Source of the DNA: Lacibacter luteus
GTDB taxonomy: Bacteria; Bacteroidota; Bacteroidia; Chitinophagales; Chitinophagaceae
Length of the DNA: 64,000 nt
Reading direction: 5' to 3'
NCBI RefSeq assembly: GCF_004118265.1
Contig: NZ_SDHW01000001.1
Span: forward strand, 1,054,001-1,118,000
The notes beneath the pieces are model-generated. The model did no database searches and was not told where the DNA came from. It worked only from the letters and a program-made list of their open reading frames with translations. A program made the position numbers and the translations under genes. Positions 37,167 to 46,518 of this stretch are shown piece by piece. The stretch's first letter is position 1, and the number at the start of each line of letters is the position of its first letter.

Positions 37167-38540
37167 ATGAACTACAAATATCTCTACATACCATTTCTCC
37201 TGCTAGTTCTCTTTGCTTCCTGCAAAAACAACAAGGCAAAGCAAACAACAGATGCAGCAAAAGAAATGTACACCTGCCCCATGCCGCAGGATTCGGTGTT
37301 CAGTGATAAGCCGGGCACTTGTCCAAAGTGTGGAATGGAATTGGTGAAAGTTACAAATGAACAACAACATCAACACGGGCATAATGATGTAGCGGCAGCA
37401 TATACCTGTCCCATGCATCCTGATGTGGTGAAAGACAACCCTGGCTCCTGCCCCATCTGCGGAATGGATCTTGTAAAAAAAGAAACAGGTGGTGCTGCAG
37501 TTAAAGAAGTGGAACTCGATGCACTTATCAAACCAACCAATGAATTTGTGATCTCATCAGTACCCGTTACCAGCATTGAAAAAAGAGCCGAGGAAATTGA
37601 GATCGAAGCATTGGGTAGCATAGCTTACGATACAAGAGCTGTTGGCAGCATTTCAGCACGTGTAAGCGGACGTATTGAAAAACTGTATGTGCGTCACCGT
37701 TACCAGAAGATCAATAAAGGGCAACGCATCATGGACATCTACAGTCCGGAGTTACTTACGGCACAACAGAATCTTTTATTCCTCTTGAAGAATGATGCAG
37801 GCAACACAGCTATGATTGAAGCAGCAAAAGAAAAACTGTTGCTGGCAGGTATGAGCAAAGAACAATTGCAACAGGTACTACAAAGCAAACAGGCATCACT
37901 CACCGTTGCGGTGTACAGCAATTACAGCGGACATATTCATGAATCAACAGGAACAGGTATGGACAACAGTTCTGAAAAAATGAAAGATGTTTCGCTGCTC
38001 ACCGAAGAACTGCTATTGAAAGAAGGCATGTATGTGAACAAAGGACAAACTGTATTCCTTGTTTACAATCCTGCAAAAGCATGGGCTGTGCTCAACATCT
38101 TTGGCGATAACAGTGCCTTGTTGCAAAAAGGAAATGCAGTGCGTATTGTTCCTGAAACAGCACCGGGTAAAGACTTTCGTGCAAGGATCGATTTTATTGA
38201 ACCATTCTATCGAAAAGAAAACAAAACGCTTACTGCAAGAGTCTATTTCGATAACAGCAGTTTGAAAATACCCATCGGCAGCCAGGTAAGAGCCATCGTG
38301 TTTGGCAATTCAAAAAATGCATACTGGTTGCCAAAAGAAGCTGTGCTTTCATTAGGATTGGACAAAGTGGTGTTTCAAAAAGTGAAAGATGGTTTTAAAG
38401 CACAGAAGATCAACACAGGCATTTTGCACAAAACACATATACAGGTATTGAGTGGTTTGCATGTAACCGATTCGGTTGCAGCCAATGCACAGTATTTAAT
38501 GGATAGTGAGAGTTTTATTAAGGTGAAGGAGAATGAGTGA
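37167..38540 (+). CDS. cusB: CusB-like RND periplasmic adaptor with two heavy-metal-binding modules
   Basis: 457 residues, lipobox LFASC (Cys19). Two metal-binding modules come first: about 31-58 ([10 protein letters not shown]...CPKCGMEL, in which the usual CPMH has become CPMP) and about 76-103 (YTCPMHPDV...CPICGMDL). Then the adaptor core: beta-barrel and lipoyl halves ([41 protein letters not shown]), a helical hairpin (about 193-245), and a membrane-proximal domain to the end. It links inner-membrane RND pump and outer-membrane channel and passes metal to the pump. In the metal operon after the TolC-like gene. Confidence 0.9.
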
Positions 38541-38636
38541 TAAATGATGAGTGGTTACCGTCTGAGGCCCTCGTCTAACGGATATGAATGAAAAGCAGTG
38601 GATAATGAATAAATGATAATTGACTAAAAAAGTTTT
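38524..38636. repeat. Heptad tracts between the two adaptor genes
   Basis: Two separated runs: about 38531-38557 (TGATAAA, TGATGAG type, partly in the end of the upstream gene) and about 38598-38632 (GTGGATA, ATGAATA, AATGATA, ATTGACT). Between them is a GC-richer 40-bp segment without recognisable function. Confidence 0.55.
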
Positions 38637-39872
38637 ATGATACGACACTATTTAAAGCTATTTAGCACACAAGTGCATGTTTGCCTTTTGCTTATTGCCC
38701 TTTGCCTGTTTGTTTTTTCTTCCTGCAAAAGCAAAACACATGTGCATACAGAAAGCGATGTGTACTACACCTGCTCCATGGATCCGCAGGTGATCGAGAA
38801 TAAGCCGGGCAAATGTCCTATCTGCAAAATGGATCTTACGCCTGTTAAGAAAAGCAACGGTGCTAAGAAAGATGAGATACAATTAAGTGAACAGCAGATA
38901 CAGTTGGGCAATATTCAAACCGATACCATTCGTACAGGTACTATTGGTGATCAGCTCGTGTTAACTGCCAGTTTAAATTTCAACCAGGATAAAACAACTT
39001 CGGTAAGTGCACGTGTGGGCGGGCGCATTGAACGTTTGTATTACCGTAACATCGGCGACCAGGTAAGTAAGGGCGCAGCACTTTACGATCTGTACAGCGA
39101 AGAACTGAACAATGCAAAACAGGAATATGTTTTGGCGGTTGAACGCAAAAGAACATTTGCAACAGAAACAGCTATTGACTTCGATCAACTGCTGCAAAGC
39201 GCAAAAAACAAACTGCTGCTGTGGGGCATGAGTGAAGCACAGATCAACGAACTGGCGAAAACAAAAAAACCAACTCCCATTACCACATTTTACAGTACAG
39301 CATCGGGCACCATTACCACACTCGATATTCGTGAAGGCGATTATGTAATGGATGGTGGTACCATTGTAAAGCTTGCTGATCTCTCCGGCTTATGGGCCGA
39401 AGCACAGCTGTATACATCACAGTTGGCAGTGATTGATGTGAATGGCAGTGCCACTGTTCAGTTTCCCGATATGGATGGGCTTTCGATCAATGGAAAAATT
39501 GAATTTGTAAACCCGGAGATCAATCCTGATACAAGGATCAATTTAATTCGTGTAGCTATTCCCAATAATGGCAACCGTTTAAAGCCAGGTATGCCAGCCT
39601 ATGTTGTATTGAAAAGTAAACAACACAGTTCGTTAAGCTTACCAATTGATGCGGTGATACGTGATGGCAAAGGTGCTACCGTTTGGATACGCACAGGCAC
39701 ACATTCGTTTAAAAGTAAAATGGTGGAAACAGGTTTGGAAAGCGGCGACCGTATTGAAATAAAAAGCGGGTTAAACGCTGGTGATATTGTGGTCATCAGC
39801 GGTGCGTACCTGCTGCACAGCGAATATGTATTTAAAAAAGGAGCCGATCCAATGGCGGGGCATAATCATTAA
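38637..39872 (+). CDS. Second CusB-like RND periplasmic adaptor with a metal-binding module
   Basis: 411 residues, lipobox VFSSC (Cys30). One degenerate heavy-metal-binding module at about 41-66 (YYTCSMDPQV...CPICKMDL: CSMD instead of CPMH and CKM instead of CGM). The adaptor core follows with VSARVGGRIERLYYRNIGDQVSKGAALYDLYSEEL (lipoyl), a helical hairpin (about 160-200), GTITTLDIREGDYVMDGGTIVKLADL and a terminal barrel; it ends in DPMAGHNH. Having two different CusB adaptors behind one RND pump is unusual; they could form a mixed hexamer or serve different metals. Its signal peptide is encoded by a 7-bp periodic tract. Confidence 0.88.
   Translation: MIRHYLKLFSTQVHVCLLLIALCLFVFSSCKSKTHVHTESDVYYTCSMDPQVIENKPGKCPICKMDLTPVKKSNGAKKDEIQLSEQQIQLGNIQTDTIRTGTIGDQLVLTASLNFNQDKTTSVSARVGGRIERLYYRNIGDQVSKGAALYDLYSEELNNAKQEYVLAVERKRTFATETAIDFDQLLQSAKNKLLLWGMSEAQINELAKTKKPTPITTFYSTASGTITTLDIREGDYVMDGGTIVKLADLSGLWAEAQLYTSQLAVIDVNGSATVQFPDMDGLSINGKIEFVNPEINPDTRINLIRVAIPNNGNRLKPGMPAYVVLKSKQHSSLSLPIDAVIRDGKGATVWIRTGTHSFKSKMVETGLESGDRIEIKSGLNAGDIVVISGAYLLHSEYVFKKGADPMAGHNH
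38681..38715. repeat. Heptad tract encoding the signal peptide of the second adaptor
   Basis: Five in-phase 7-bp units TTGCCTT, TTGCTTA, TTGCCCT, TTGCCTG, TTTGTTT lie inside the coding region and encode its hydrophobic core (VCLLLIALCLFVF). They share the TTGCTTATTGCC word with the tract upstream of cusA (32481-32492). Confidence 0.7.
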
Positions 39873-42238: not shown

Positions 42239-42270
42239 AAAAACCCGTTTCATTTACGAAACGGGTTTTT
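42239..42270 (+). terminator. Intrinsic terminator of trxA
   Basis: Perfect 13-bp stem (42239-42251 with 42258-42270), loop ATTTAC, A5 on the left and T5 on the right. Lies 21 bp after the trxA stop. Confidence 0.88.
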
Positions 42271-42294
42271 GTTTTAGCAGATGATTTTACGACA

Positions 42295-42340: not shown

Positions 42341-42371
42341 TTTGTTAAACTAATTCGGCCTTATACGTTCT
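42341..42371 (+). promoter_or_regulatory. Promoter candidate of the SET/ATP-grasp operon
   Basis: TTTG (42341-42344), a 19-nt spacer, then TACGTTCT (42364-42371), close to TAnnTTTG. Located 36 bp upstream of the SET gene start, it would transcribe the whole three-gene cluster. Confidence 0.45.
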
Positions 42372-42407: not shown

Positions 42408-42902
42408 ATGTCAGTTACCACTCTTTCTGCAACCGTTCTATCGGGCCACTATGGCTTTGCTGAAATTCACAAGCTGCCCGATGTCAATCATCATCTGTTG
42501 GTTTCAACAAAAAGTTTTCAGCCCGAAGAAACCATCTGCACATTCGGTGCAAAAGAAATTCATGCTGCTCCTTCACGCTTTACTGTACAGGTAAACGAAA
42601 CACAACATATTATTCTGCAACCTGAATTTCTGCAATACATTAATCACAGCTGTAACCCCAATGCTTTTTTCAATACCACTACAATGGAATTAATTGCATT
42701 GCGTGCTATTGTACCGGGCGATGAGTTTACCTTTTTTTATCCGAGCACCGAATGGTTTATGGCAGAACCATTCGCATGCCGTTGCGGCGAGGCCAATTGC
42801 ATTGGTACAATAAAAGGAGCGAAAGAGTTAACAAAAGACGTTTTAAAAGATTACCGTTTAACTGATTTTATACAACGTAAAGTGCAGCAACGAAACGATT
42901 AA
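42408..42902 (+). CDS. Stand-alone SET-domain methyltransferase
   Basis: 164 residues made up almost entirely of a SET domain. Visible are the S-adenosylmethionine/knot motif YINHSCNPNAFF (about 78-89), the second motif GDEFTFFYPSTEW with the catalytic-type tyrosine, and a post-SET cysteine cluster CRCGEANCIG (three Cys near the C-terminus that with the NHSC cysteine can bind zinc). The N-terminal SET strand is compressed (SGHYGFAEIHKL). SET enzymes methylate lysine side chains; the substrate here is unknown. It starts a cluster with two ATP-grasp ligases, the second of which has its own SET domain, so a small molecule, peptide or partner protein may be the target rather than histone-like proteins. 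Confidence 0.88.
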   Translation: MSVTTLSATVLSGHYGFAEIHKLPDVNHHLLVSTKSFQPEETICTFGAKEIHAAPSRFTVQVNETQHIILQPEFLQYINHSCNPNAFFNTTTMELIALRAIVPGDEFTFFYPSTEWFMAEPFACRCGEANCIGTIKGAKELTKDVLKDYRLTDFIQRKVQQRND

Positions 42903-42918
42903 TAAGTTACATTTACTT

Positions 42919-44055
42919 ATGCTTCTAAACCCGGTATCATCTCTTCCTGTTACACAACATCCTTTGTTCATTTGGGTACTGGCTCCGCATCTGCAAACCA
43001 ACGATGCCAATATTGATTACTACTACGATTTTTCACAGAGCATCGAAGAATACACAAAGATTTTTGCGCAACTGCAACTCAACTGGAAATGGCAACCTGT
43101 TACACAGGAAAACTATAAATCGATCATTGATGATATTGCAGCCACAACATCATTTCAAACACCTGTTGTATTGAATTTGTGCGATGGAGATGAAGTGAAT
43201 GGAACACCCGGTGTTTCCGTTATTCATTACTTAAAAGAAAAGCAACTCATTTATACCGGAGCTGATGCGGCGTTTTATGATAACACTACTTCAAAGATCG
43301 TTATGAAGAAGATGTTTGATGATGCCGGTATTCCACATGCCAAATGGGTAGCTATTACAAAACGTGATCAGAAACTAAAAGGTATTTGCAATTATGTGGG
43401 CACGCCTTTAATTGTAAAACCTGCAGTAAGTGGTGGCAGTATGGGTTTAGGTGTAAAGAATGTTGTACAGAACGATGAAGAGTTGAATACGTTAGTACAG
43501 GAATTGTTTGAAGGTTACCGTGGCTGGGATTTTTCATTCGGTGGATTGGTAGCTGAACAGTTTATTAACGGGCCAGAATACACGGTGTTTCTTTCCGGTT
43601 CGCATCACGCACCACGTAGCCGAAAAGTATATCCACCTGTTGAGCGTATTTTTCATAAAGACTTACCTGATACTGAAAAATTTCTCTCCTTCGATCGTTT
43701 GTGGGAAACCTATGAACAGGAAAAACCATTGGGCGAATACGAAGATTTTTATCAGTACCATTTACCTCCTATTGCATTGCATAAAAAAATTATGGACCTC
43801 AGCTGGAAAGCTTACTGTGCAGTAGAAGGAACAGGTTATGGACGCATTGATATCCGCATGGATAAAGCAACCGGCAAATTATATGTACTGGAAGTAAATG
43901 CACAATGTGGTTTGAGTGAAGATGAAAATTATACATCCATCGGAGCCATTGTTCGTTTAAGTAATCAACCCTATTCCGGATTGATCCTTCATATTCTGCA
44001 GGATGCTATGCAGCGTCATTACAAAAAACAAAAAAAGACAGTGGCTGTACGTTAA
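42919..44055 (+). CDS. D-Ala-D-Ala-ligase-like ATP-grasp enzyme
   Basis: 378 residues. Pre-ATP-grasp Rossmann part (about 15-110, with VVLNLCDGDEVNGTPGVSVIHYL in place of the Ddl NxxHG region), then an ATP-grasp fold: IVKPAVSGGSMGLGV (phosphate loop), LVAEQFINGPEYTVF, RIDIRMDKATGKLYVLEVNAQCGLSEDE (Mg2+ ligands D and E/N). It makes a carboxyl-phosphate and joins it to an amine. It is not a housekeeping Ddl: it is longer, lacks the Ddl substrate residues that I can recognise, and has an insertion (about 205-275) with RSRKVYPPVERIFHKD. It begins 16 bp after the SET gene and is followed 14 bp later by a second ligase. Confidence 0.88.
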   Translation: MLLNPVSSLPVTQHPLFIWVLAPHLQTNDANIDYYYDFSQSIEEYTKIFAQLQLNWKWQPVTQENYKSIIDDIAATTSFQTPVVLNLCDGDEVNGTPGVSVIHYLKEKQLIYTGADAAFYDNTTSKIVMKKMFDDAGIPHAKWVAITKRDQKLKGICNYVGTPLIVKPAVSGGSMGLGVKNVVQNDEELNTLVQELFEGYRGWDFSFGGLVAEQFINGPEYTVFLSGSHHAPRSRKVYPPVERIFHKDLPDTEKFLSFDRLWETYEQEKPLGEYEDFYQYHLPPIALHKKIMDLSWKAYCAVEGTGYGRIDIRMDKATGKLYVLEVNAQCGLSEDENYTSIGAIVRLSNQPYSGLILHILQDAMQRHYKKQKKTVAVR

Positions 44056-44069
44056 CAGCATGAAGTTTT

Positions 44070-45503
44070 ATGAAGATCTGTGTACTGCAACCCGACTACT
44101 CCACTTCTGCTGTTGATTACCAATATTACGATCCTGCAAGAAATTTATCGGCTTTATTGCCCGATGTTGAGTTTCATCATGTTTTGCTCAACAAACTTAC
44201 TACCTACAAACAACTGTTGCAGTTAAGTAAGCAAGGCTTTGATTGTTTTGTGAATTTGTGCGAAGGTTATCTCGAATGGGAAGTACCATCCATTGATGTG
44301 ATCTATACGTTGGAATTATTGAATCTGCCATTCACCGGACCAAACAGTTTGTTATACGATCCGCCAAAAGAATTAATGAAATATGTTGCCTACACCGAAG
44401 GTGTTGCAACTGCTAATTATGCATTGATCGACACAACAGACAATCTTGAAGAGCAGATCAAACACCTCAACTTTCCTTTGTTTGTAAAACCTGCTAAAGC
44501 AGGCGACAGTTTGGGTATAGACGAGCATTCTGTTTGTGCTACCATTGATGAATTGTATCAGAAAGCAGTTACTGTGTTATTGGATTATCCGCAACTGCTG
44601 GTTGAAGAATACATTGCAGGCAGAGAGTTTACGGTACTTGTTGCTGCCGATGCAAAAGATGAAAAGAAATGCAGAGTGTTTCAGCCCATTGAATTTATTT
44701 TTCCTGAAGGCCGAACGTTTAAAACATACGCACTCAAAACATCGGAGCTTCATCCCGAAAGCAATATTCCTGTTACCGATGCATCCATCAAACAACAACT
44801 AACGGAAGCGGCTCAACGCATTTTCAGAAGTTTTGGCGGCGTGGGTTATGCCCGCATGGATTTCCGTATGAACGATGCAGGCAAACTTTTCTTTTTGGAA
44901 GTAAACTTCACCTGTTCTGTTTTTTATACTGATGGTTACGAAGGCAGTGCCGATTACATTATTAAAGCCGATGGTATTGGCCAGACCGGTTTTCTGAAAC
45001 ATATTATTGAAGAAGGGATAGCCCGGCATAAACGCAGACAAAAGAAGTATGTCATGAAGGGCAACTCCATTGCCGGTTTCGGTATTTATGCCACAACACA
45101 TATTACTGAAGGCGACATCATTTTTAAAGGCGAAGAACGTCCGCAACGAATCGTTACCAAACGCTGGGTTGATGAAAACTGGCTGCCCGAAGAAAAGCTG
45201 CTCTTTAAACATTATGCTGTTCCGCTCAGCACCGAAGTATATGTGCTGTGGGATAATAATCCATCGGAATGGGCTCCGCAAAACCACTCCTGCCGACCAA
45301 ACACTGCTTACAATGGCCTTAATCTGGTAGCACTGCACCCCATTTTGCCCGGCCAGGAGCTTACGCTCGACTACGCCGAACTGCTGAATGAAAGTGCCGA
45401 AACATTTGACTGCCAGTGCGGTACACCCGACTGCCGCAAAATCATTTCCGGCGCCAAAGGCAATTCTGTCACACAGAAGGAACAAATTAACAGGCCCCAC
45501 TGA
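44070..45503 (+). CDS. ATP-grasp ligase fused to a C-terminal SET domain
   Basis: 477 residues. Residues 1-320 form a D-Ala-D-Ala-ligase-like ATP-grasp enzyme (FVNLCEGYLEWEVPSIDVIYTLELLNLPFTGPN, FVKPAKAGDSLGI, LVEEYIAGREFTVLV, RMDFRMNDAGKLFFLEVNFTC). After a basic linker (KRRQKKYVMKG), residues about 330-470 are a complete SET domain: GNSIAGFGIYATTHITEGDIIF, APQNHSCRPNTAY, GQELTLDYAELL and post-SET cysteines CQCGTPDC. The fusion states that ligation and methylation act on the same product. ATG 44070 is used; another ATG 10 bp upstream is out of frame. Third gene of the cluster. Confidence 0.9.
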   Translation: MKICVLQPDYSTSAVDYQYYDPARNLSALLPDVEFHHVLLNKLTTYKQLLQLSKQGFDCFVNLCEGYLEWEVPSIDVIYTLELLNLPFTGPNSLLYDPPKELMKYVAYTEGVATANYALIDTTDNLEEQIKHLNFPLFVKPAKAGDSLGIDEHSVCATIDELYQKAVTVLLDYPQLLVEEYIAGREFTVLVAADAKDEKKCRVFQPIEFIFPEGRTFKTYALKTSELHPESNIPVTDASIKQQLTEAAQRIFRSFGGVGYARMDFRMNDAGKLFFLEVNFTCSVFYTDGYEGSADYIIKADGIGQTGFLKHIIEEGIARHKRRQKKYVMKGNSIAGFGIYATTHITEGDIIFKGEERPQRIVTKRWVDENWLPEEKLLFKHYAVPLSTEVYVLWDNNPSEWAPQNHSCRPNTAYNGLNLVALHPILPGQELTLDYAELLNESAETFDCQCGTPDCRKIISGAKGNSVTQKEQINRPH

Positions 45504-45516
45504 CAAGCCATCGGCC

Positions 45517-45524
45517 TAACTTTG
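45517..45524 (+). promoter_or_regulatory. Candidate -7 element before the ABC membrane-domain gene
   Basis: TAACTTTG matches TAnnTTTG, 110 bp before the ATG at 45634. No good -33 box is seen. Confidence 0.35.
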
Positions 45525-45633
45525 CCCTCCCTACTAATCCATTACGCTGTTTAAAGGAAGTTTTTTGCTCCACTAAACTGCAGCGGTTCTGCACAGTCAA
45601 TTATTGGTACACATAAAAAAGGAAGGAACGGTT

Positions 45634-46518
45634 ATGCCCGGCAAATGGATCATTCAAACAATTATCGGCCGCTATAAATACAAATTGCTGCTAACTTATT
45701 CGCTGTTTGGTATAGAAATGCTGGGCTTGTTATTGCGCCCGTATTTTTTAGGCGAGGCAGTAAACGGTTTAATTAAAGGTTCGTACCAGGGATTGTTTTA
45801 TCTGGCAGGAGCACATTTACTTTGGGTAGTGATGGGTACACTTCGTCATCGTTACGATTCACGTACCTACTCCAACATTTATACTTCGCTGGTGGTAAAA
45901 CTCATGAGCCGTAACCGCAACAGCGATCTTTCGAAACTGAGTGCACACTCAACACTTTCACGTGAGTTCATTGATTTTCTTGAGTTCGATCTTAACTACA
46001 TTATTGAAGCTGCTTACAACATTATCGGTTCGCTTGTATTGTTATTCTTTTATGATACACAGGTTGTATTACTTTGTTTGCTGATGTTGATACCAGTAAG
46101 CATTACCAGCTATTTGTATGGCAAGCGCATGCGTCGTTTAAATAAATTCAAGAACGATGAACTGGAACAGCAGGTAAATATTCTTGCAACAAGAAATCCC
46201 TTACGCATCAGTGAACATTACAACAAACTGCGTAAATGGCAAATCAAGATCAGCGACCAGGAAGCGTGGAATTTTGGTGTTATGGAATTGTTGGTGATGG
46301 TGATTATTACAGCTTCGTTGATCACTGTGTCATCGGTAAATGGCAAGTCGTTGCAGGCAGGTGACATGATCGGCATCTATACCTACATTCTCAAATTTGT
46401 AACAGGTTTGGATACTGTACCATACATGATTCAGCGAACATCAACCTTAAAGGATATTCTGCACCGGATAGAACTTGAACCGGAAGATGAATTGCCGGCT
46501 GCAGTTTCTGCGGCTTAA
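45634..46518 (+). CDS. ABC-exporter six-transmembrane domain protein without ATPase
   Basis: 294 residues from ATG 45634, preceded by a clear GGAAGGA ribosome-binding site (the frame is open 30 bp further up). The sequence is a type-I exporter membrane domain: spans at about 15-36, 50-68, 130-148, 153-172, 225-245 and 255-275, with cytoplasmic loops rich in R/K. The chain ends right where an ATP-binding domain would start (...DILHRIELEPEDE), and no Walker A gene is nearby. It could pair with an ATPase encoded elsewhere or have lost transport function. Following the SET/ATP-grasp cluster by 130 bp on the same strand, it might export the product, but that is only inference. Confidence 0.75.
   Translation: MPGKWIIQTIIGRYKYKLLLTYSLFGIEMLGLLLRPYFLGEAVNGLIKGSYQGLFYLAGAHLLWVVMGTLRHRYDSRTYSNIYTSLVVKLMSRNRNSDLSKLSAHSTLSREFIDFLEFDLNYIIEAAYNIIGSLVLLFFYDTQVVLLCLLMLIPVSITSYLYGKRMRRLNKFKNDELEQQVNILATRNPLRISEHYNKLRKWQIKISDQEAWNFGVMELLVMVIITASLITVSSVNGKSLQAGDMIGIYTYILKFVTGLDTVPYMIQRTSTLKDILHRIELEPEDELPAAVSAA

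Follow-up and report, generated by a model that had tools for sequence, protein, structure and literature searches.

What does a SET-domain methyltransferase do beside two ATP-grasp ligases, one of which carries a SET domain of its own? The question is raised by three adjacent genes of Lacibacter luteus (assembly GCF_004118265.1, contig NZ_SDHW01000001.1, positions 1,054,001 to 1,118,000, the 64,000 nucleotides referred to here as the window), encoding a lone SET protein, a ligase resembling D-Ala-D-Ala ligase (Ddl), named here LIG, and a ligase-SET fusion, named here FUS. They represent a conserved enzyme alliance, built from known families and undescribed as far as the open literature was searched. 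Comparison with relatives suggests, with a probability of about one half, that the cluster encodes a small-molecule pathway, in which amino-acid methylation and dipeptide-type ligation would give a methylated peptide-like metabolite. The gene content, conservation, co-occurrence, motif integrity and relationships of the cluster were established directly. The features of the locus, in window positions, are as follows (aa, amino acids).

42408..42902, + strand: lone SET methyltransferase, BurB-like, 164 aa; NHSC, Tyr111, YPSTE and post-SET CxCx4C kept, N-terminal GxG absent
42919..44055, + strand: LIG, Ddl-like ATP-grasp ligase, 378 aa; conserved presumed omega-loop insertion and presumed acceptor-side acidic motif
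44070..45503, + strand: FUS, 477 aa; Ddl-like ATP-grasp (about residues 1-325) and SET with post-SET cysteines (about residues 326-470)
45634..46518, + strand: membrane half of an ABC transporter (PF13748) lacking an ATPase domain; accessory (41 of the 56 fully flanked loci)
42242..42275, + strand: inverted repeat and T run 3' of a thioredoxin gene; stem mostly invariant in 5 aligned loci

Direct reading of the sequence gave the same coordinates, gene order and strand as the original prediction, made from the letters of the window, and the same gaps of 16 bp between the lone SET and LIG and 14 bp between LIG and FUS. Its domain calls agree with Pfam: Dala_Dala_lig_C was matched in the two ligases (E 2e-18 and 1e-21), and the SET model in FUS (E 5e-9, model positions 1-104 of 105) and in the lone SET (E 9e-9, covering model positions 62-104 of 105 only). 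The description of the SET domain as complete applies to the FUS SET alone, since the GxG motif is absent from 59 of 59 lone SETs.

A scan of species genomes with FUS yielded 158 relatives, the best 80 of which were analysed as loci; these come from Chitinophagaceae and other Bacteroidota bins, and FUS is full length or nearly so across them. Lacibacter cauensis, Ferruginibacter paludis and Sediminibacterium soli are among the species with LIG-FUS. Neighbour counts were made in the 56 of the 80 loci flanked by 3 kb or more at each end: all 56 have LIG, 52 have the lone SET, 41 the ABC half and 38 all four genes. Clustering of open reading frames (ORFs) of at least 60 aa gave 24 of the 80 loci as the upper limit for any further gene family, many loci being short-flanked, and the commonest other neighbour families read like ordinary chromosomal genes, judged from first residues. 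In comparisons of the cluster genes with five relatives (NG86), the ratio of nonsynonymous to synonymous substitution rates (dN/dS) was 0.04-0.17 where computable, several dS values being near saturation and the ABC half not being computable in three of the five comparisons. By the conservation counts and dN/dS, the grouping of the genes exceeds chance. Two loci have insertions between LIG and FUS: in L044:4337-5937 a pair of genes, of which the first looks like that of a DNA methyltransferase, and in L094:4967-5959 an opposite-strand gene with a nucleotide-binding motif.

FUS was surveyed in Bacteroidota genomes (in the sense of GTDB) and, separately, among plasmid and phage records. The full-length protein was found in 15 of 296 Bacteroidota genomes, namely, five Chitinophagaceae, including the window's own, eight members of a genus designated g88, and G266 and G267, belonging to two other families with one FUS genome each. 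The surveys for the lone SET and LIG covered 296 genomes, apparently the same sample. The lone SET (E < 1e-50) is present in 14 of the 15 FUS genomes and in none of the 281 others, although weaker SET matches occur, G314 having the strongest of them (E 3e-29); LIG (E < 1e-150) is present in six genomes, each of which contains the lone SET and FUS too. Fisher's exact test for co-occurrence of SET and FUS gives p = 5e-23, but the FUS genomes are related, and the co-occurrence is accordingly counted as about three lineages. In G034, the lone SET lies about 1.7 Mb away from LIG-FUS along the contig, and in G267 SET-LIG and FUS are located on different contigs; the retention of the genes in an unlinked state is good evidence of shared function.

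Within the genus of the window, a full FUS was found in 10 of 13 other genomes, and one has FUS in pieces on two contigs. FUS is absent from G004 and G005 (2.4 Mb), the two smallest of the genomes of this genus compared, which suggests loss with genome reduction. Outside the genus, FUS is present in 5 of 22 genomes of the family and in none of 23 in the rest of the order; in the window's class it was found in 4 of 295 genomes, all from the window's family, and in the family of G266 in 1 of 92. This patchy occurrence, together with the position of the G267 FUS among Chitinophagaceae forms in the trees, suggests horizontal transfer. The neighbourhood is thus conserved beyond close relatives, a point on which the original prediction had been made to depend: it is family-wide, though patchy, in Chitinophagaceae, and a variant of it occurs in the genus g88.

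The genus g88 is most likely one of green sulfur bacteria, since genes BchD and BchI adjoin the cluster in L150. FUS occurs in 9 of 98 genomes of the green-sulfur class and is confined to one of its nine genera. In the g88 cluster, SET and FUS are accompanied by a complete ABC exporter and another small SET; both SETs and FUS are arranged alike in six of seven regions, including L148, L183, L185 and L186, while the seventh, L184, stops at a contig edge. The exporter, of 604 aa, was identified by Pfam in L149, and a similar protein is encoded in L150. The second small SET (L149:11756-12112, 118 aa) lies 3' of the exporter and forms its own group in the tree. In the window, a half ABC exporter devoid of ATPase was indeed found 130 bp after FUS (ABC_membrane_3, E 7e-40, no ATPase domain in Pfam); its start is most likely ATG 45634, whereas the mechanical ORF starts at TTG 45604. 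It differs from an ABC exporter with the membrane half and ATPase in one chain, and on comparison no kinship with the green-sulfur exporter of L149 could be recognised. Given its presence in 41 of the 56 full-flank loci, the ABC half is accessory.

The lone SET offers the first indication of the chemistry. Motifs NHSC, TxQ...H and CxCx4C were found in all 59 members, the Tyr residue is invariant in 20 of 20, and Y-x-S/T-x-E (Y-x-S-T-E in BurB) occurs in 56 of 59; GxG, a motif of SET lysine methyltransferases, was found in none of the 59. The best solved relative is BurB (MSMT; PDB 9l4t, 9l4v), with E 4.7e-19 in a profile search vs 2.2e-8 for the next match, a histone enzyme, and 9.6e-14 vs 1.1e-7 in a single-sequence search. 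The green-sulfur SET is likewise nearest to BurB (9.6e-13 vs 4e-5, single sequence). As a control, the SET protein L001 of the same genome matched KMT2A (1.3e-18), and BurB was absent from the best 60 of its 102 matches. BurB is a SET enzyme converting free methionine to S-methylmethionine, and works in dimethylsulfoniopropionate (DMSP) synthesis with BurI, BurD and BurE (PMC12542666, where an MSMT of Streptomyces mobaraensis is also named). The premise of the original prediction, that SET domains methylate lysine amines, is accordingly too narrow, the acceptor in BurB being the sulfur of a free amino acid.

The resemblance to BurB includes the SET fold class, the size (164 aa in the lone SET, 172 aa in BurB), the TxQ block, the Y-x-S-T-E motif and the post-SET cysteines. 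The differences concern the gating loop for S-adenosylmethionine (SAM) and the gene context: BurI-, BurD- and BurE-type genes do not recur with the window's cluster, and, judged from first residues, DMSP-pathway gene families do not recur across the 80 loci. In a tree of 37 SET sequences, the lone SETs cluster with the first green-sulfur SET (98/99), and this cluster is nested in a wider group (92/89), which holds the BurB orthologue L172 of Eleftheria terrae. L172 has 77% identity with BurB over 88 residues, and aminotransferase and aldehyde dehydrogenase genes adjoin it. Three plasmid SETs, all on long branches, also belong to the wider group, and two of them adjoin genes of amino-acid enzymes: a diaminopimelate-decarboxylase-like gene in Sphingomonas, and genes of alanine racemase, a pyridoxal-phosphate (PLP) enzyme and a GHMP kinase in Tabrizicola; the third, of Streptomyces, has no obvious metabolic partner. 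The Tabrizicola SET is located on a small conjugative plasmid, where a DMT transporter gene was also found (L175:1124-6128).

Both ligases have the Ddl fold and its ATP/Mg residues, as seen in alignments and structure models (pLDDT 85.7 for LIG and 79.2 for FUS). Residues K130, K167, E213, R309, D311, E325 and N327 of LIG are invariant in 23 of 23 sequences, as are K104, K140, E179, R262, D264, E277 and N279 of the FUS ATP-grasp domain in alignments of 19 and 24 rows, the former of which takes in the green-sulfur, G266 and G267 forms. These residues were equated with Ddl catalytic positions by alignment with the genome's own Ddl, and we take their roles to be those of Ddl biochemistry. The same alignments show N405, H406, C408, Y435, C448, C450 and C455 of the FUS SET to be invariant. 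Both ligases thus look catalytically complete, as had been proposed; active-site residues are intact in the ligases and the FUS SET, and the GxG of the lone SET is the motif missing on alignment.

The ligases are not ordinary representatives of the Ddl family. The best 50 solved structural matches of LIG, and likewise of FUS, are D-alanine, D-lactate or D-serine ligases of this family (Foldseek E 6e-21 and 1e-18), and both proteins hit NCBIfam Ddl models at 80-89 bits; the curated cut-offs are 243-246, and with NF002378 LIG scores 80 and FUS 84 bits vs 243. The genome contains its own Ddl (L178), whereas the cluster has two copies, one of them SET-fused. LIG carries a long conserved insertion (FLSFDRLWE...), which we take to be in the omega-loop, and an acidic motif, NAQCGLSEDEN, presumably on the acceptor side, its SED[ED] part being present in 69 of 73 LIG proteins; in both regions the cluster ligases differ from Ddl. 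The LIG and FUS ligases branch as sister groups (100/99), and still do so with Ddl and the divergent FUS omitted.

The best-scoring relatives outside the LIG/FUS group are tandem Ddl-like ATP-grasp proteins encoded beside KamA. On these eight proteins, the LIG profile scores 62-95 bits vs 16 on the genome's own Ddl, and the FUS profile 73-106 bits vs 72. Such pairs adjoin a gene of a KamA-family aminomutase in L151, L152, L154 and L156, with a GNAT gene in the first three, the gene names being confirmed by family search in L151 only. These operons share with the cluster two Ddl-like ATP-grasp genes, but have an aminomutase and acetyltransferase instead of SET, and their ligases stand apart with 100/99 on long branches. 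A single ligase relative adjoins KamA in L157, where family search confirmed it, and a Thioflavicoccus relative lies with genes of KamA, a transaminase and SbnA (2,3-diaminopropionate); the neighbours of a Rhizobium relative are uninformative. The KamA and SbnA contexts concern unusual, mostly basic amino acids.

We infer every chemical step and substrate class of the proposed pathway as follows. The lone SET would methylate an amine or an amino acid in free form. Of the candidate reactions, methylation of the methionine sulfur to S-methylmethionine is the likeliest, and an alternative target is a nitrogen of a basic amino acid or polyamine. LIG, with ATP, would convert a carboxylate to an acyl phosphate and join it to an amine, as in D-Ala-D-Ala ligase. 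Another amide bond may be formed by the ATP-grasp half of FUS, and the SET half may methylate the product of the ligase half without release. FUS retains every recognised motif, and would represent a naturally occurring bifunctional ligase-methylase. The predicted product is a di- or tripeptide-like metabolite, methylated and probably cationic, which might be exported via the ABC half in some species and via the full ABC exporter in green sulfur bacteria.

Several observations weigh against this pathway. The lone SETs are about 40% identical to BurB over only some 85 residues and lack GxG. The SAM contacts R42, A44, H72, H93, R133 and H138 of BurB (PMC12542666) correspond on alignment to N, H, F, H, E and R in the window SET, so that only His93 of the six is kept, although the comparison is imperfect, the BurB orthologue L172 itself having R for H138; the lone SET was therefore not filed as a BurB orthologue. 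BurB is described as binding methionine by main chain (PMC12542666), and sequence therefore cannot reveal the substrate of the lone SET. The FUS SET is canonical, with GxG and without YxSTE, and the whole-FUS profile scores BurB (2e-11) and KMT2A (9e-11) nearly equally. The KamA-linked ligase relatives are distant, and the ligase trees carry long-branch warnings. The three-domain L224 fusion described below, which like the SET-LIG fusion of L108 speaks for the pathway, was seen in only 1 of 92 genomes of its family. Parts of the cluster also occur apart: the green-sulfur version has no LIG, G266 has FUS without the lone SET or LIG, and G314 has a related SET (E 3e-29) without FUS. This last protein, of 149 aa (L225:7071-7520), has no obvious partner gene.

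The chief rival of the small-molecule pathway is protein modification, in which FUS would ligate an amino acid or peptide onto a host protein and methylate a nearby lysine, as imagined for tubulin-ligase-like proteins. The canonical motif set of the FUS SET (GxG in 78 of 79 proteins; NHxC, [DN]Y and the post-SET cysteines in all 79) speaks for it, and so does the match to KMT2A. FUS SETs are grouped separately in the tree (93/96) and have DY-x-S/T-x-E in none of 79, and the FUS SET taken alone is closer to BurB, though more weakly than the lone SET is (7e-9 vs 1.4e-5). With KMT2A-type lysine methyltransferases the cluster shares SET motifs, most clearly in FUS, whereas the lone SET is without GxG and nearer to BurB. 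Eukaryotic TTLL12, which unites SET-like and ATP-grasp-type (TTL) domains in one chain, also favours protein modification; in the open literature searched, it is the only relevant SET/ATP-grasp fusion. Its SET is N-terminal, whereas that of FUS is C-terminal, its ligase is of TTL rather than Ddl type, and it is described as lacking critical residues and activity in vitro (PMC3520985). The ligases of the cluster fit Ddl models better than those of TTL or RimK type, no target-protein gene was found to recur beside the cluster by neighbour clustering and small-ORF search, and relatives are located in amino-acid metabolism. Protein modification is rather unlikely in our estimate. The original prediction had left metabolite and protein conjugation equal; a metabolite is favoured because the relatives of both enzyme types, SET and ligase, point to it, and the premise of lysine N-methylation is not supported. 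The prediction was right on the structure of the cluster and only in part on its meaning.

Conjugation of a polyamine or of a gamma-glutamyl peptide, as in glutathione-like products, with the SET domain N-methylating the polyamine part, appears less likely again. It finds support in the acidic SED[ED] motif on the presumed acceptor side of LIG and in the contexts of the L224 fusions and the G266 FUS described below, but each of these contexts belongs to one genome; the second L224 fusion partner is not confirmed as ATP-grasp, and the SET tree was built without the L224 SETs. It is quite improbable that the lone SET has ceased to be an enzyme and now serves FUS as a partner or regulator: although GxG is missing from all members, and its dN/dS is the highest of the three core genes in four of five comparisons, the ratio is still 0.07-0.17, and NHSC, the TxQ...H block, CxCx4C and the invariant Tyr are kept. 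A ribosomal peptide system of the graspetide type, with ATP-grasp enzymes crosslinking a precursor that may be encoded elsewhere, is highly improbable. An ATP-grasp pair with a methylase and an exporter half presumably resembles such clusters in outline, but in NCBIfam both ligases match Ddl models best, and no precursor peptide recurring widely was found close to the core among ORFs of 18-120 aa within 600 bp upstream and 250 bp downstream, or among ORFs of at least 60 aa. The largest same-strand small-ORF families are present in only 9 of 69 loci upstream and 6 of 79 downstream. A small-ORF family of the opposite strand, found in 20 loci, runs antisense to the start region of the ABC gene.

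A small-molecule pathway thus remains the preferred explanation, and no description of a SET/LIG/FUS unit was found in one open literature library; within the literature searched, no published pathway contains the triad, as the original prediction had stated. If the reading is true, the cluster represents a testable route to a new metabolite in green sulfur bacteria and in numerous Chitinophagaceae of soil and fresh water. Bacterial SET proteins carry the name protein-lysine methyltransferase in the annotations encountered; were those of the cluster to act on free amino acids or small peptides, the name would be wrong for a whole SET subgroup.

Other SET fusions were also found. In L108:4261-5931, the lone SET is fused to the N-terminus of LIG in a protein of 556 aa, a domain order that is the reverse of FUS and the same as in TTLL12. 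L224:7465-9318 (G258) encodes a 617-aa fusion of SET, AdoMet decarboxylase and spermidine synthase; among 92 genomes of that family, no other matched the three domains within one reading frame. It is adjoined by the gene of a 483-aa SET fusion (L224:5989-7440), the partner of which carries ATP-grasp-like hints only: no Pfam, NCBIfam or PDB match was found, hhalign gave 32% and 8%, and identification as ATP-grasp was not confirmed. Relatives of this partner adjoin a DDAH-like gene (L247) and a BKACE/GNAT gene (L231). In G266, the FUS gene lies beside genes of a glutathione-synthetase-like ATP-grasp, a MATCAP/QEGLA carboxypeptidase-like protein, FGase and gamma-glutamyltranspeptidase (L146:4041-12099). 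A wider possibility, which we put forward tentatively, is that SET and Ddl-like ligases form a recurring, unrecognised bacterial biosynthetic alliance making methylated onium-type amino-acid or polyamine peptides, embracing ATP-grasp-SET, SET-ATP-grasp and SET-AdoMet decarboxylase-spermidine synthase fusions; a new metabolite class would then come from an enzyme family thought to act on chromatin.

Upstream of the cluster, the inverted repeat at 42242..42275, seen by direct reading and not among the features listed by the consensus scan, probably separates transcription of the cluster from that of the preceding thioredoxin gene. It is largely invariant in the five aligned loci, and the cluster therefore probably starts its own transcript. 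The string TTTG-N19-TACGTTCT, proposed as promoter-like, is present at 42341-42371, but TTTG is missing from all four aligned relatives and TACGTTCT is retained in the closest one only, so that the promoter claim is not supported. Nor did the scan lend support to a promoter, its model being of sigma-70 and not of the Bacteroidota type.

A role in defence was rejected, PADLOC assigning none of the four cluster proteins to a family. A mobile element was likewise rejected: no relatives were confirmed in viral contigs, and no plasmid or phage record covers 80% of FUS. Elsewhere in the window, at 37167-39872, two proteins with CPMxP...CPICxM heavy-metal-binding motifs are encoded, reading like adaptor proteins of RND-type metal efflux.

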